50,742 bases of DNA. Origin: Synergistaceae bacterium. GTDB taxonomy: Bacteria > Synergistota > Synergistia > Synergistales > Aminobacteriaceae. The stretch covers positions 1 to 50,742 of the forward strand of contig JAFSKV010000045.1 of assembly GCA_017448795.1 (NCBI GenBank). Direction: 5' to 3'. Made by a program: the position numbers and the translations under genes. The first letter of the stretch is position 1; every line of letters starts with the position of its first letter. The notes under the pieces are model-generated. The model searched no databases. It was given only the letters and a program-made list of their open reading frames with translations, and was not told the DNA's origin. This document shows positions 1 through 38,059 of the stretch, piece after piece.

Positions 1-235
1 GCTGTCAGACAGGGAATATATCTGCCCTGAATGCGGGTCAGTGATGGACAGGGACAAGAACGCAGCAATAAACCTGCGTGAGTGTGTGAAGTACCGTACC
101 GCTGGCTAGGCGGGAAGGGGTTAAAAGGCCTCTGGACTGTCATACAAGCCTTAGTAGCTTACGCGAAAAGGGACAGGATGAACGAGGAATATTCTAGAAG
201 TGTGGATAATACGTTATCGCACTTTTTAGTAGCAG
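1..235 (+). mobile_element. Right end of an IS200/IS605-type TnpB element (partial, copy 1)
   Basis: The stretch holds the last 35 codons of a tnpB gene and about 126 nt of non-coding right end. It is nearly identical in reverse orientation to 20581-20817, where a full copy sits. The match stops sharply at AGTAGCAG (ending at 235), which I take as the element boundary; beyond it the two flanks differ. A hairpin at 198-224 (AAGTG pairing with CACTT, inner GATAA with TTATC, TACG loop) followed by Ts resembles the subterminal hairpin of IS605 right ends. The left part lies outside the window. Confidence 0.85.
2..109 (+). CDS. tnpB: TnpB RNA-guided nuclease, C-terminal fragment (5' end outside window)
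   Basis: The 35 visible residues contain the second half of the zinc finger (CPEC) and the third RuvC acidic residue in MDRDKNAAIN, as in the full copy at 20693-21853. TnpB is an RNA-guided DNA nuclease that cuts the empty donor site and so promotes retention of IS200/IS605 elements. Compared with the full copy the reading frame ends five codons early, because a CAG codon there is TAG here (107-109). The lost tail lies beyond the catalytic residues, so activity need not be lost. Whether the upstream part is intact cannot be seen. Confidence 0.85.
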   Translation: MSDREYICPECGSVMDRDKNAAINLRECVKYRTAG

Positions 236-20571: not shown

Positions 20572-20695
20572 GTTACTTCACTGCTACTAAAAAAGTGTGA
20601 TAATGTGCCTTCCACACTTCTAGAATATTCCTCGTTCATCCTGTCCCTTTTCGCAAAAGCTACTCAGGTTTGCCCGACAGTCCAGAGGCCTTTTA
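20572..20695 (-). ncRNA. Putative omegaRNA scaffold and guide region of TnpB copy 2
   Basis: Non-coding right end of the full element, read on the minus strand after tnpB. A hairpin with a perfect 7-bp stem (AAGTGTG/CACACTT, 20593-20619) is followed by six Ts and AGTAGCAG ending at 20581. The inferred guide begins at 20580 with TGAAGTAAC and runs into the gatB start codon. Compared with copy 1, the hairpin stem differs by a T-A versus T-G change that keeps pairing, a hint of structural constraint. Confidence 0.6.
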
Positions 20696-21880
20696 ACCCC
20701 TTCCCGCCTGGCCAGCGGTACGGTACTTCACACACTCACGCAGGTTTATTGCTGCGTTCATGTCCCTGTCCATCACTAACCCGCATTCAGGGCAGATATA
20801 TTCCCTGTCTGACAGCTTCAAGTCTTTCTTCACGTGTCCGCATCGGGAACATGTTTTACTGCTGGCGTAAAATCTTTCCGCAATCCTGAGCTGGATACCG
20901 TATACTGCGCATTTCCGCTCTAACAATTCCCGGAAGTACCATAACTCGCACTCAGATATAGCCCGCGACAAATGACGGTTCTTCATCATCCCTGACACGT
21001 CCAAGTCCTCGATTGTGATGAACTCAGGCTGTATGCTTGTGATTTCGTGTACAGCTTTCTTGAGGTAATCGCGGCGTTTGTTGCTCATCCTCATATATGC
21101 CCGCTGTACCTTCAGCCTCTGTTTGTCCAAGTTCGAACGAGTTTTCCTAGCAGCAGTTACCTCCTTTCTGTGTCTTAGTTTGCGCGAGAATTTCCGCTGC
21201 TCACGCTTCAGCCTTTTCTTCAGCCGTCTCATTCGGTCGGTGTGGTTGATGTTGGGATATTTCCTGCCGTCTGAGACAACCGCAAAACTCTTTATCCCTA
21301 AGTCAATTCCGATTCCCTCAGACTTGGCGGGCTGTGCTTGGGTTGCCTTCACGGTCTCAAACACGAACGAGGCAAAATATCTTCCTGCCCGGCGCGTTAC
21401 CGTTACGCTGAGTGCCTGCCCATCACATGGAACATAGCCGTATTCCTTAAAGCGTACCCAGCCTAGTGTTGGGAGCTTGGCACGATGACGTTCGATTTTG
21501 AGATCGCCTGCATTGTTGCGCGGTAGATACATGCTCACTGGCCGTCCGTTCCTCCGCTTGAATTTCGGGAAGCCCGCTCTGCCCTTCATGAATGACTTGT
21601 AGGCTGTATCCTCGTTCATGACTGCTTTCTTGACCGCTTTCGATGACACTTCCCATATCCACGACTTGCCAGGATTGGCATTCCTGTAGTCGTTGTTGAG
21701 CCACTTCGAGAAGTCATAGCCCGACATATAGCTTCGTGTGCCGTCGCGGTAATTATCACGGTTGGCCGCTATGAACAGGTTGTAGACGTAACGGCAAACT
21801 CCCATTGTCCGCTCTATTTGCTTTATCTGTTCGGAAGTCGGCTTGAGTTTCACCTTATAAGTATTATGTCCTAATACCCT
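20581..21880 (-). mobile_element. IS200/IS605-type element carrying tnpB only (copy 2)
   Basis: An element of about 1.3 kb with a tnpB gene and no tnpA Y1 transposase in sight, the IS1341-like organisation. The right boundary (20581) is set by loss of match to the copy at 1-235. The left boundary is not certain and lies between 21854 and the gatA stop at 21884. There is no sign of a target duplication, as expected for this family. It is inserted in the gatCAB operon, in the operon's orientation. Confidence 0.8.
20693..21853 (-). CDS. tnpB: TnpB RNA-guided nuclease (IS200/IS605 accessory protein)
   Basis: 386 residues, close to the usual TnpB size. RuvC residues: D184 in GIDLGIKSFAV, E282 in TIEDLDVSGMM, and D364 in MDRDMNAAIN. 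The zinc finger has C335, C338, C354 and C357 (CSRCG...CPECG). The N-terminus KLKPTSEQIKQIERTMGVCR and the basic middle (about 205-262) are typical. The first usable codon is GTG at 21853, after AAG; the frame is open seven codons further (YKVKLKPT is a better family start) but offers no ATG/GTG/TTG. All catalytic positions look intact. Confidence 0.93.
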   Translation of the reverse strand: MKLKPTSEQIKQIERTMGVCRYVYNLFIAANRDNYRDGTRSYMSGYDFSKWLNNDYRNANPGKSWIWEVSSKAVKKAVMNEDTAYKSFMKGRAGFPKFKRRNGRPVSMYLPRNNAGDLKIERHRAKLPTLGWVRFKEYGYVPCDGQALSVTVTRRAGRYFASFVFETVKATQAQPAKSEGIGIDLGIKSFAVVSDGRKYPNINHTDRMRRLKKRLKREQRKFSRKLRHRKEVTAARKTRSNLDKQRLKVQRAYMRMSNKRRDYLKKAVHEITSIQPEFITIEDLDVSGMMKNRHLSRAISECELWYFRELLERKCAVYGIQLRIAERFYASSKTCSRCGHVKKDLKLSDREYICPECGLVMDRDMNAAINLRECVKYRTAGQAGRG

Positions 21881-32866: not shown

Positions 32867-32891
32867 CGGGCGATTTCCGCGTTTGAAGCTG

Positions 32892-32900
32892 TGGTATAAT
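32892..32900 (+). promoter_or_regulatory. Putative extended -10 element
   Basis: TGG-TATAAT 26 nt past the permease stop and upstream of a second, better promoter. It could start a longer leader for the exported protein gene. The -35 is poor. Confidence 0.4.
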
Positions 32901-32945
32901 ACCCGAAATTCCAAGTTAAGCGACAAAATTTCAGCAGAAGGAGTG

Positions 32946-32974
32946 TAGACAGGATGCGATTCGGCGGCTATAAT
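32946..32974 (+). promoter_or_regulatory. Promoter of the leader and exported Ig-like protein gene
   Basis: TAGACA (32946-32951), a 17-nt spacer and TATAAT (32969-32974). This is the best -35/-10 pair seen in the window. A start near 32981 gives a leader of about 134 nt to the ATG at 33115. Confidence 0.7.
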
Positions 32975-32980
32975 CGAGGC

Positions 32981-33093
32981 CACGAAGCCACGAAGCCACG
33001 TCTAGCTATGCCCTGATTCATGCTGAAACAGTGAATATAGAGACCAGCGTCCCCATGCTTGGGAGTAATCCTGAGCGCGGGGGCGATTTTTTG
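32981..33093 (+). ncRNA. Structured leader or small RNA ending in an intrinsic terminator
   Basis: The predicted transcript starts with CACGAAGC in two copies, followed by a hairpin (ATTCA/TGAAT with CTG/CAG above an AAA loop, about 33016-33036) and the terminator at 33048-33092. It contains no credible ORF. Because the ribosome-binding site of the next gene lies past the terminator, this is either a cis-acting attenuator or riboswitch, or an sRNA with read-through. I compared it by eye with known riboswitch cores and found no match. Confidence 0.5.
33048..33092 (+). terminator. Intrinsic terminator inside the leader
   Basis: CGTCCCC (33048-33054) pairs with GGGGGCG (33079-33085), with an inner GCTTGG/CCTGAGC stem, followed by A and six Ts. 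It lies 22 nt before the start codon, so full-length mRNA needs read-through. Confidence 0.75.
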
Positions 33094-33114
33094 TGTCGGA
33101 AGGAGACATGCAGA

Positions 33115-35598
33115 ATGGTCAAAAAGTTGTTGGCGGCGGCAGTGGTGTTGTTGGTGATGGTGTCGGGAGCATGGGCGGATATGCAGATATTCTCTTCTCA
33201 CCGCTCAATCGTGGATTTGGCTGACGGGAAGCCGGACTACTCGACAGCAAGATTCCTCAGCATGTGGGTAGAGGCATTAGGCTATGACGGTCAGGCAACG
33301 CAGGCAGATGTGAATCTCACGGGTACAATGACATTCTCAGATGGCGATTATTCCTTCTGGGACAGCAAGAACGGGATGCGCCACATTTCGGGAGCTTCGC
33401 ATACTTTTGGGCTTGCCGCTGGGAGCTGGGTCAATGTGGGAAGTGCGCCTGAGTATGTACCAATGACAGCGAGCGGTGATAATGTCGTGTTTTGTCTTGA
33501 GGCGGACGGTGGGCTTAACGGCGTTAATGTCAGTTGGAGCTTCCCGGACAAGCCGGACTACAGCGGAACGGGTACAGTCCCGCATTACAGGACAACTCAG
33601 TCCCAGTTGGAGTCGTACGTTCCTTACGTGGAGTACGTGCGCTCAGGCTCTCAGGTTTCGGGGCTTAGGTGGCGGATTGTGAGTCCCGACAACACAGCGG
33701 AGGCCGTAGCGCTGGATTTCGAGTCGTGGTTCGTGATAGACAGTGTTCAGGACGCAGACGGAACTACCCTGTATTCAGGCTCATGGACAGACATTGAGGC
33801 AGGGAATCCTGTTTCAGGCGAGGCAACGTTCGACAGCCCGCTCAATGAGGCCGACATATCAAGGATACGTGTTGCTTTCAACCGCTGGAATGAAGACTCT
33901 GAGAACAGCTATCAGTGGTTCTTCTGCAACCCCTCAGAGCCGGAGCCTTGGCTGTATGAGAATCACTCGTTTACTGCCTCGCTGGTGAACGGGAAATCTG
34001 ACTATAGCAATGTGAAATCCGACCGCATCTTCTTCGATGTACGGGTCAGCAGGGGCATAATAGCTGAGGCCAAGCATTTCACAGCAGACGCAAGCATGAC
34101 AATACCGGGCGGAGGCTACAGTCTCGCAGATAACGACACAGATGAAGACCTCGGCGTAACTGTTCCGGTCGGCACGGATAAGACGTTCAAGCTGAGAATG
34201 GGCAGTAGTGTAGCACCTGGTGATACTAGTCTGCTGGAATTTCAGCCAATCGATGAAAACGGTGCGAATCTCCACTTTGAGGGCGGTGCTGAGGGCGGTG
34301 GGGAAAACCTCGTAGGCAGGACGATAACATGGACATTCCCGGAAGATTTCGGCCTCAGCGGGAGCGCAAAAGTCAGCAGCTTCAAATCTGCGGTGCAATT
34401 CCTCGCTACTGCTGTCCCGTATGTTGAGCTTGTCAGTGCTGACGGGAAACTCACGGCTGTGAACTTCAGGATGGTTGCATCGTCAGACACATCAACGGCT
34501 CTGGAGCTTCCGTACAGGACGAACTTCCGGCTTCGCTTTGACCGCATAGTTCCTGATGAGGTAAAGGGCAAGTATTACTATTCGAGCTGGAGGTACAATG
34601 AATCGTCAGGGACATGGACGCTTGGGCAACCGCAGGACTTGAGCAACATGGAATGCGTTACGGTTCGCCTCTGGAGCTGGGAAGAAGACGCAGACGACTC
34701 ACTAAAGTATCAGTGGCACTTCTACCCGGCCGAAGCCCCCGCGCCCCTCGAAATCACGACGGCCTCCCTTCCTGACGCAACCGTGAACGCCTCCTACACC
34801 GCCACCCTAGCCGCTAACCTCCCCGGAGCCACATGGTCAGTCTCATCCGGGACTCTCCCGGCAGGCCTCACCCTCAACTCATCGACCGGGACAATCTCCG
34901 GCATCTCCACAACAGCAGGCACGGCGACATTCACGGTAACAGCCACGCTCGAAGGCCACGGCAGCGCGGAAAAGACTTTCACCCTCACGGTCAGCCAAAC
35001 GCCGACACCCCAGACTGTAGAAATCACCACGACCACAATCCCGGAAGCGGTCGCAGGGATGAGCTACAACGCCGAGCTTGAGTCGAATCCCGAAGGGGCG
35101 ACATGGACGCTCTCAGGCAACCTTCCGGCGGGGCTTGTCCTCGACTCATCGGGCAGGATTTCCGGGACTCCGACGGTTGCAGGCGAGTTCAGGTTCACTG
35201 TTACGGCAAGATACGGCACGGCAAGTGATGTTCGCACTCTGACGCTCACGGTGAAGCCCCTCGAAATCACGACGGAGACTCTTCCGGGCGGGACTGTCGG
35301 GGATGCGTACAACGAGACTCTGACCTCCAACGGTTCGGGACTCACATGGACGGTTAGCGCAGGGACTCTCCCGGCGGGTCTCACACTGAACGGGAACACC
35401 GGGCTTCTCTCCGGGACACTGACGGAGGCGGGGGAATACACGTTCACGGTCTACGCTCACAACACACACGCCAGCGCGTCCAAGCAGTTCACGGTGAATG
35501 TCAGCAACAGAGGCACAGGCGGACATGGCGGGGGCTGCTCATCATTCACGGCGGTATTCGGCGCAGGTCTCCTCGCAGTCATACTCAAGAGACGTTAG
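33115..35598 (+). CDS. Exported protein with duplicated N-terminal modules, three He_PIG-type Ig-like domains and Synergist-CTERM-like tail
   Basis: 827 residues. The signal peptide is MVKKLLAAAVVLLVMVSGAWA. Two related modules of about 260 residues follow, each ending in a RWNEDSENSYQWFF / WSWEEDADDSLKYQWHF type motif. Three putative-Ig (He_PIG) domains start near 544, 634 and 714, each with LPAGLxL and ISG/LSG. The tail GGHGGGCSS, hydrophobic helix and KRR resembles the Synergist-CTERM sorting signal. It is probably a surface or envelope-anchored protein, perhaps for adhesion. ATG 33115 has AAGGAG upstream; longer frames run through the terminator. Confidence 0.8.
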   Translation: MVKKLLAAAVVLLVMVSGAWADMQIFSSHRSIVDLADGKPDYSTARFLSMWVEALGYDGQATQADVNLTGTMTFSDGDYSFWDSKNGMRHISGASHTFGLAAGSWVNVGSAPEYVPMTASGDNVVFCLEADGGLNGVNVSWSFPDKPDYSGTGTVPHYRTTQSQLESYVPYVEYVRSGSQVSGLRWRIVSPDNTAEAVALDFESWFVIDSVQDADGTTLYSGSWTDIEAGNPVSGEATFDSPLNEADISRIRVAFNRWNEDSENSYQWFFCNPSEPEPWLYENHSFTASLVNGKSDYSNVKSDRIFFDVRVSRGIIAEAKHFTADASMTIPGGGYSLADNDTDEDLGVTVPVGTDKTFKLRMGSSVAPGDTSLLEFQPIDENGANLHFEGGAEGGGENLVGRTITWTFPEDFGLSGSAKVSSFKSAVQFLATAVPYVELVSADGKLTAVNFRMVASSDTSTALELPYRTNFRLRFDRIVPDEVKGKYYYSSWRYNESSGTWTLGQPQDLSNMECVTVRLWSWEEDADDSLKYQWHFYPAEAPAPLEITTASLPDATVNASYTATLAANLPGATWSVSSGTLPAGLTLNSSTGTISGISTTAGTATFTVTATLEGHGSAEKTFTLTVSQTPTPQTVEITTTTIPEAVAGMSYNAELESNPEGATWTLSGNLPAGLVLDSSGRISGTPTVAGEFRFTVTARYGTASDVRTLTLTVKPLEITTETLPGGTVGDAYNETLTSNGSGLTWTVSAGTLPAGLTLNGNTGLLSGTLTEAGEYTFTVYAHNTHASASKQFTVNVSNRGTGGHGGGCSSFTAVFGAGLLAVILKRR

Positions 35599-35635: not shown

Positions 35636-35677
35636 TTCACTACTCACTAACCACTACTCACTAACCACTACTCACTA
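35636..35677 (-). repeat. Six heptamers TAGTGRN starting at the dnaK stop codon
   Basis: Read on the minus strand, the dnaK TAG stop is the first three bases of six tandem 7-mers: TAGTGAG, TAGTGGT, TAGTGAG, TAGTGGT, TAGTGAG, TAGTGAA. With period 7, a TAG recurs in each of the three frames in turn. The terminator follows immediately. Confidence 0.85.
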
Positions 35678-37524: not shown

Positions 37525-37552
37525 GCCACTAGCCACTAATCACTAGCCGCTA
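37525..37552 (-). repeat. Four heptamers TAGYGRN starting at the grpE stop codon
   Basis: On the minus strand the grpE TAG is the start of TAGCGGC, TAGTGAT, TAGTGGC, TAGTGGC. Same design as after dnaK. The remaining gap to dnaK holds a GGGAGGA ribosome-binding site. Confidence 0.8.
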
Positions 37553-38059
37553 GATTTTCCCTACTGTTACTTTTGCCGGGCGTAATACCCTGTCTTTTGT
37601 CCTGTAACCCCTGAGCAATTCCGCCGTGATTTTCCCGTCAAGCTCCGGGCTGTCTACTTTCTCCGTTCCTGATGCGTCATGTATTGCCGGGTCAAAACTC
37701 TCGCCTTCAGTCTTGATGACACTCACGCCGAGTCCCTCAAGGACATTCACAAACTGACGCTGTACCATTTCGACACCCTTAATGATTCCGGCCGGGTCAT
37801 CTGTGCTTGCTGACAATGCGCGGTCCAAGTTGTCCAACACCGGGAGCATCGCTGTGATTGCTTCCTCTTTTGCGCGGGCGCGTGTCTCGGTGCGTTCCTT
37901 TATCGTCCGCTGACGGAAGTTGAAGAAATCCGCCCTCACTGTCTTTATTTCCGTCTTGAGGCTCTCTATCTCGCCTTTCAGCTTGTCTGTCTCACTCTGC
38001 GCTTCACCGTCAATTTCTTCTTGGGACTCCTCTGTGTCCTCTAGTTTCTCGTCATCCAT
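37550..38059 (-). CDS. grpE: Nucleotide exchange factor GrpE
   Basis: Promotes ADP release from DnaK. About 169 residues: an acidic N-terminus, a long coiled coil (about 25-75; ADFFNFRQRTIKE), and the C-terminal beta domain with FDPAIHDASG, LLRGYRTKDRVLRPAKVTVGK. The ATG at 38059 has GGAGG 8 nt upstream; a GTG nine bases earlier is less likely. It lies between hrcA and dnaK. Confidence 0.96.
   Translation of the reverse strand: MDDEKLEDTEESQEEIDGEAQSETDKLKGEIESLKTEIKTVRADFFNFRQRTIKERTETRARAKEEAITAMLPVLDNLDRALSASTDDPAGIIKGVEMVQRQFVNVLEGLGVSVIKTEGESFDPAIHDASGTEKVDSPELDGKITAELLRGYRTKDRVLRPAKVTVGKI

Follow-up and report, generated by a model that had tools for sequence, protein, structure and literature searches.

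A module that is very probably a phase-variable transcription attenuator has been identified ahead of an exported-protein gene of Synergistaceae bacterium (assembly GCA_017448795.1, contig JAFSKV010000045.1). The window, which denotes the whole stretch of 50,742 nucleotides (nt) analysed in this work, makes up one contig in a genome of 2.54 Mb. The module comprises a Shine-Dalgarno sequence (SD), the start codon of a leader open reading frame (ORF), a promoter-like element (P2) that overlaps this start codon, and a tandem array of short units. At the window locus an intrinsic terminator separates the array from the gene. The unit length is not a multiple of three, therefore the number of units sets the reading frame after the array. 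The regulator is most likely this copy number, which would be read by a ribosome.

The module at the window locus

The features of the locus are listed in Table 1. A preliminary description of this DNA had proposed a promoter, a structured leader of about 110 nt without ORF, a repeat, a hairpin, and a strong terminator ahead of an 827-residue exported protein. The terminator was recovered, ending 22 nt before the start codon of the gene, and the 827-residue ORF was borne out by translation. The repeat, CACGAAGC, corresponds to the tandem array of the module and consists of two perfect units and one imperfect unit. The leader does contain an ORF, which carries its own SD and traverses both P2 and the repeat, so the statement that it lacks one does not hold. 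The -35/-10 pair stands, and its significance comes from a spacer of 17 nt that is conserved among the copies of the module. It does not come from the promoter scan, where 3 promoter-like sites in 6 kb were found against 2.9 in shuffles, and P2 is thus unremarkable as a scan match.

Table 1. Features of the leader and the exported-protein gene in the window.
Feature	Position	Strand	Remarks
P1, extended -10 promoter TGTGGTATAAT	32890..32900	+	Predicted, likely promoter of the leader mRNA; upstream of the SD; conserved in the C1 paralogue
SD AGAAGGAG of the leader ORF	32936..32943	+	Purine-rich
P2, promoter-like TAGACA-17-TATAAT	32946..32974	+	Overlaps the leader start codon; 11/12 consensus positions
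Leader ORF MRFGGYNRGHEATKPRLAMP then stop, 20 codons	ATG 32954 to TGA 33014-33016	+	Current OFF frame
Tandem array, 8-nt unit CGAAGCCA	32975..33000	+	About 3.2 copies; first unit CGAGGCCA
ON frame, positions = 1 mod 3	32974..33114	+	Open from array to terminator; in frame with the exported protein
Double stop, TAG 33003 and TGA 33014	33003..33016	+	Shuts two of the three post-array frames
Intrinsic terminator	33048..33092	+	Hairpin 33048-33085, -27.1 kcal/mol; six U at 33087-33092
SD GGAAGGAG of the downstream gene	33098..33105	+	From sequence
Exported protein, 827 aa	33115..35598	+	Signal-peptide-like N-terminus; three He_PIG (Ig-like) domains, PF05345, E 5.6e-42

The two OFF-frame stops end 42 nt and 31 nt 5' of the hairpin, and the third frame leads directly into the exported protein. 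By sequence arithmetic, this ON frame is reachable from ATG 32954 only by the loss of one unit or the gain of two units. The window copy reads OFF by the frame of its start codon.

A second and nearly identical (94%) module copy was found on contig C1. This paralogue of the window locus (G000:C1:65092-66371; L009, L025) has the same leader with one more imperfect array unit, and its exported-protein gene is interrupted.

Distribution and anatomy of the module

A match was found in 12 of the 61 genomes that were searched, and all 12 are congeneric. Pattern searches and first similarity searches identified 44 module copies in total in 43 genomes of one Synergistaceae genus. A looser pattern, applied to 180 genomes from 58 genera of the order, gave matches confined to this one genus. 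A scan of 84,980 species gave 23 matching stretches, of which 22 belong to Synergistaceae and one belongs to Rhodobacteraceae, which is about chance level. Several of the 22 Synergistaceae stretches are labelled as uncultured Fretibacterium, many come from goat and roe deer foregut, and several are the same records as genomes that bear G numbers in this work. The scan of IMG/VR gave no further module copies. A 45th copy came to light by way of its protein, independently of the pattern; it has a 7-nt unit, a 17-nt spacer, a double stop, and a third frame that runs to the terminator.

Pattern matches in which the array is absent were dropped before the count. L042, L082, L089, L090, and L101 were judged with their flanks, while L048, L049, L070 (G032:C29), L098, and L105 were judged by the matched string, which in L098 is identical to that of L101.

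The anatomy observed in these copies follows one order, namely P1 (where visible), SD, TAGACA or TTGACA (which replaces TAGACA in some copies), the leader start codon, TATAAT (or TAAAAT, TACAAT, CATAAT), and the array. A leader start codon is present in all 44 copies. In 40 of them its index is 8 or 9 (19 GTG, 13 ATG, and 8 TTG), and in the other four it is 12, 12, 14, and 15. A purine-rich SD (AAAGGA, AAGGAG, AAAGGGG, AAAGGTG, or similar) lies directly 5' of TAGACA in nearly all 44 copies. Upstream of 38/44 copies there is a TG-extended -10 that matches at 7 or more of 8 positions; this is a raw count without a shuffle null, and in 37 of the 38 the motif is positioned 24-69 nt 5' of TAGACA. 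The gap between GTAGACA and GCTATAATC was allowed to range from 10 to 20 nt and is 15 nt in all 29 exact matches in the 43 congeneric genomes; therefore the P2 spacer is 17 nt, where 12-22 nt was permitted. P2 is retained whichever of two different reading frames crosses it, including at the loci where the module is fused to a coding region.

At least seven of the 44 copies are situated no more than about 200 nt from the end of a contig (G031:C38, G022:C271, G003:C222, G003:C248, G000:C59, G018:C224, and G027:C158), as if assemblies break at a repeated or variable module.

Tandem arrays at the module

The array begins directly after the -10-like element, at the same place across the module copies. 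About 14 different unit sequences were found across the family, with 1-10 copies per array. The 7-nt units are CGAACCA, CAAGCCA, CGAGCCA, CAGCTCA, CGGTTAT, CGGGTAT, CAGTTAT, CGCTCAA, CACGCAT, CACTCAT, and CGAACGG/CGAACGA. There are also two 8-nt units (CGAAGCCA and CGCTCAGA) and one 13-nt unit (CGACAAGGCAACA). The unit sequence varies among loci, and its position and non-triplet length remain constant.

Tandem Repeats Finder, run on 166.8 kb of loci, identified 33 arrays at the module, with periods of 7 (25 arrays), 8 (7 arrays), and 13 (1 array). None of these 33 periods is divisible by three, compared with 9 of the 19 arrays found elsewhere in the same sequence.

The arrays could in principle be neutral heptad clutter beside a chance ORF and a plain terminator of the upstream sugar-transporter operon, and heptad-like arrays do occur elsewhere in the window. 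The interval between dnaK and the exported-protein gene holds one of them (CACTACTCACTAAC x 2.9, 35637-35677), and that between grpE and dnaK holds a degenerate TAGTGGC-like array (37525-37553); neither is at a module. We give this explanation next to no credence, because 25 of the 27 period-7 arrays and 7 of the 9 period-8 arrays lie exactly at the module. An absence of the module from other loci would have favoured it; instead, the module precedes unrelated genes, and the upstream genes differ as well.

A 29-nt match to the leader (ACTATGCCCTGA...CATGCTGA) was observed in L023 (1501-1529; G004:C12), in an apparent repeated unit that occurs twice in 250 nt. This match is possibly the origin of the post-array segment, or it may be due to chance.

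Reading frames and stop positions

The 44 copies were sorted into 29 of the terminator type, eight that are fused to a coding region, four that are cut by a contig end, and three that were set aside owing to an unclear terminator (G016:C95, G062:C88, and G030:C6). In G030:C4 and G064:C298 the terminator was positioned manually.

Exactly one frame is open from the array to the U-run in 27 of the 29 terminator-type copies, and in the same 27 copies both other frames are shut within 30 nt of the array. Dinucleotide shuffling of the sequence after the array gave expectations of 11.4 copies with at least one open frame and 3.9 copies with both other frames shut, and these expectations overstate independence because the copies are related. 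The stops arise from differing post-array sequences in different gene classes (e.g., TATAACTATGCCCTGA vs TATTAGTCT...CCGTAA). The nearest OFF-frame stop ends 24-62 nt 5' of the hairpin in 29/29 copies, at 24-32 nt in 25 and at 27 nt or more in 24. The ON-frame stop lies within 9 nt of the downstream ATG in 13/27 copies, with overlaps of the form ATGA (G004:C68 and G009:C7) and TAATG (G029:C3). This proximity is due in part to one gene class that has a conserved MLGG start.

The start-codon frame is ON in seven of the 29 terminator-type copies (G001:C5, G022:C271, G009:C5b, G009:C7, G030:C5, G004:C68, and G000:C85) and OFF in 22, including the window copy. Two of the eight fused copies are in frame (G031:C3 and G016:C10) and six are out of frame. 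The start codon of the C53 copy was read by the script as out of frame. Paralogues in opposite states were observed in one genome, where G004:C23 (OFF) and G004:C68 (ON) have near-identical leaders, arrays that differ by 14 nt (two units), and TupA-like ATP-grasp genes downstream. Arrays with many perfect units are found in these two copies, G009:C5a, and G030:C5.

These frames bear on two further explanations. The repeats could tune a promoter, as at hmw1A/hmw2A, in which case P2 would work as the promoter, the RNA would start in the array, and the transcript level would change stepwise with repeat number and with no leader translation. The P2 spacer of 17 nt in 29/29 matches, kept in two reading frames, agrees with this, and the accessible text of PMC2424069 describes 7-bp promoter repeats of hmw genes with an inverse stepwise relation to expression. 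We consider promoter tuning improbable, since it leaves unexplained the start codon with its SD, the non-triplet units, the double stop with one open frame, and the copies in which the array lies within a coding region.

The module could also be the 5' end of a phase-variable coding region that has decayed or been fused, with the terminator and the later start as by-products of rearrangement. The eight copies with the array in the 5' coding region and no terminator speak for this, and the Methyltransf_24 family is found both fused to the module (L079 and L108) and behind a terminator (G009:C7). The terminators, though, carry compensatory changes, and the OFF-frame stop at 24-32 nt in most copies would be needless in a by-product, so we regard such an origin as very improbable.

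RNA structure of the leaders

A consensus fold was computed for 13 exported-protein-class leaders, from the array to the U-run; it predicts the terminator helix only and leaves the remainder up to the hairpin unpaired. This helix has 17 pairs, of which five are changed on both sides (compensatory), and its covariation term is -2.33. The 136-nt leader of the window folds with a z of -1.67, and 7 of 200 shuffles are equally good. The leader is therefore hardly structured beyond its terminator, which is the sole predicted conserved helix, contrary to the preliminary description.

That description had also suggested a new cis-regulator and had recognised no known riboswitch core. The second point agrees with Rfam, which gave no riboswitch family and no match in the 401-nt region at E up to 10, and none at the leader at gathering thresholds in a window-wide search. 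From the first point, the cis-regulator itself and the need to control read-through of the terminator are retained; nothing supports a regulator of the ligand-sensing kind. The alignment of homologues for covariation, which had been proposed as a check, returned a covarying terminator, preceded only by a non-triplet array within a leader ORF that looks translated.

A riboswitch or another ligand-binding leader RNA that governs the terminator would fit the position of the terminator between promoter and gene, and an ORF scan that starts from 60 aa shows no leader ORF. Given the blank Rfam searches, the consensus fold that holds the terminator alone, and a leader fold that barely exceeds shuffles, this explanation is extremely improbable. 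An amino-acid attenuator of the trp/his type was rejected as well, as the leader peptides vary with the unit (examples are RTTNHEP, QATSHKP, and RLSVIGY) and the leaders show no conserved alternative helix.

Proposed mechanism

In the proposed attenuator, the RNA would begin at P1, and a ribosome would initiate at the leader start codon (ATG 32954 in the window) and traverse the array. In two of the frames, the ribosome would meet the double stop after the array and come off the RNA some 31 or 42 nt short of the hairpin, whereupon the terminator would form and the gene would be OFF. In the third frame, the ribosome would translate through the hairpin, termination would fail, and the ribosome would arrive at or near the downstream start, which would turn the gene ON. 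Gain or loss of units by slipped-strand events would flip the state at random. The anatomy, its conservation, the frame counts, and the paralogues in opposite states are documented in the sequences; transcription from P1, translation of the leader, anti-termination driven by the ribosome, and switching within a population are inferred.

P2 itself may be a second promoter, a sigma-dependent pause that aids the ribosome in catching up, or a part of the process that seeds the arrays. A somewhat different reading takes the module as a portable cassette (P1, SD, start codon, TAGACA-17-TATAAT, and array site) that would confer phase variation on whichever gene it precedes, acting by frame only where it is fused and by attenuation where a terminator is present, with P2 not as a promoter of the gene but as a sigma-dependent pause that holds RNA polymerase. 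On this reading, arrays would be seeded anew at the fixed site, which would explain the varying unit sequence together with the constant position and the constant non-triplet length. Such a pause would be useful because terminators in the first 100 bp of a coding region are otherwise efficient, as far as the available text of PMC4824070 describes. We judge the cassette with a pausing P2 to be unlikely, though worth considering.

Several points weigh against the phase-variable attenuator. The third frame stops inside the hairpin in two of the 29 terminator-type copies (G003:C105 and G003:C67, both from genome G003). A hairpin was called in G062:C88, which fails the frame test outright and would bring the count to 27/30 if it were included. 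The relatedness of the copies, mentioned above, lessens the force of the shuffle comparison. The conserved P2 is unexplained by the attenuator, because transcripts from P2 would miss the leader start codon. The ON-frame leader peptide shows no third-position bias (143, 211, and 185 differences at positions 1, 2, and 3); therefore the peptide is probably not selected, and the stop position is what persists. Slippage in nature is a prediction; with one genome covered per species, a difference of exactly two units was seen only between the paralogues G004:C23 and G004:C68. The array of the window is short and imperfect, therefore this copy may switch rarely and is perhaps nearly locked OFF.

Comparison with known systems

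Three known systems share a part of the proposed mechanism. In the pyrBI attenuator of Escherichia coli, a leader ORF crosses an intrinsic terminator and a close ribosome blocks termination, as is proposed here, but control is exerted by nucleotide-dependent pausing and not by repeat number. The siaD frameshift of Neisseria meningitidis gives phase variation through intracistronic, Rho-dependent termination and is not known to have an array-bearing leader ORF. The phase-variable terminator switch of cwpV in Clostridioides difficile works by DNA inversion and is not known to have a leader ORF with a tandem array.

The closest likeness is to the pil1 and pil3 loci of Streptococcus gallolyticus, where the accessible text describes a promoter, a leader ORF with a ribosome-binding site (RBS) and a non-triplet array, a terminator, and a downstream surface structure; the short frame ends well before the terminator and the longer frames reach or cross it (PMC3894217). 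At pil1, it has been shown experimentally that GCAGA repeats alter the length of the leader peptide and that longer peptides put the ribosome on the terminator, and in isolates whose leader stops 28 nt or more ahead of the terminator most cells express at a low level (PMC3894217). In E. coli, a ribosome at a stop codon represses an intrinsic terminator, and the effect is gone beyond about 27-30 nt, according to the portion of PMC4824070 consulted. The window locus likewise has an RBS-led leader ORF with a non-triplet array and an intrinsic terminator before the gene. A switch of the Pil1 type has its OFF stop about 28 nt or more ahead of the terminator and its ON stop inside or beyond it; the OFF stops of the window lie at 31 and 42 nt, and its ON frame is open through the terminator.

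The differences from pil1/pil3, as those loci appear in the accessible text of PMC3894217, are of scale and of architecture. The streptococcal switches use a 5-nt unit (GCAGA, 22 copies) at two pilus loci, whereas the predicted switches described here use 7-, 8-, or 13-nt units in 1-10 copies at dozens of loci. Features of the latter alone are a conserved start module, a double stop, and a promoter-like element that overlaps the leader start; their ON frames, moreover, frequently close at the following start codon.

Repeats of 7 nt are also found in the 5' coding region of neuO of the E. coli K1 prophage CUS-3 and other contingency loci, where the frame decides between ON and OFF (PMC13001214, in the text available). 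The eight fused copies are of this ordinary kind, whereas most copies here would instead act through a terminator on a separate gene. The hmw1A and hmw2A genes of Haemophilus influenzae likewise have 7-bp repeats 5' of a surface adhesin; the effect on transcription is graded there and, in the part of PMC2424069 consulted, apparently not framed by a leader ORF.

A search of open-access literature returned no description of a switch of this sort from Synergistetes or Synergistaceae. On the best reading, a mechanism like that of Pil1 is already known, and what appears to be new is its presence in another phylum, at many loci and genus-wide, with other unit lengths, a shared start module, and fused and attenuated copies side by side.

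Genes under the module

The genes downstream of the module encode exported He_PIG and LRR proteins, FkbM methyltransferases, Methyltransf_23 and Methyltransf_24 proteins, TupA-like ATP-grasp proteins, a GT4 glycosyltransferase, and GNAT acetyltransferases. The family scan covered 20 proteins, in which L064, L075, and L047 gave no family and L093 gave only sub-threshold or short zinc-ribbon matches. The targets are surface proteins and, probably, glycan enzymes, as phase variation would predict. The C-terminal end of the 827-residue protein of the window resembles the Synerg-CTERM sorting signal; NCBIfam gave no match for this protein.

The module is an optional addition, because homologues of the window protein without it exist. 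Four of them (L152, L153, L156, and L158, in G012:C207, G032:C41, G006:C22, and G019:C2) have poly-G tracts of 12, 15, 9, and 9 nt just 5' of the gene, in positions that resemble a promoter spacer (e.g., TTGACA-G15-CATG-TATAAT). Such tracts are a classical hallmark of a different type of phase variation, which suggests that the family of the window protein may undergo phase variation by promoter spacing in sister species.

Other features of the window

Two matches to the RAGATH-18 RNA were found in the window, at 129-189 (+) with 58.4 bits and at 20628-20688 (-) with 54.8 bits. The second lies directly 3' of an OrfB_IS605/TnpB-like gene (20693-21853, -, Pfam), and the flanks of both matches are alike. 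In this setting RAGATH-18 resembles the guide RNA region at the 3' end of an IS605-family element.

Implications

If the phase-variable attenuator is correct, a device that has been shown experimentally in one Streptococcus would be standard and reused in a gut genus that belongs to another phylum and is mostly uncultured. Its design rules could be read from sequence: the unit is non-triplet, there is a double stop, the hairpin in most copies follows the nearest stop by about 24-32 nt, and the ON frame often terminates at the start codon that comes next. A repeat-bearing leader whose ORF is unannotated can pass for a riboswitch. The state of each locus would be predictable from genome or metagenome reads, so that surface variation of rumen Synergistaceae would be testable without culture.

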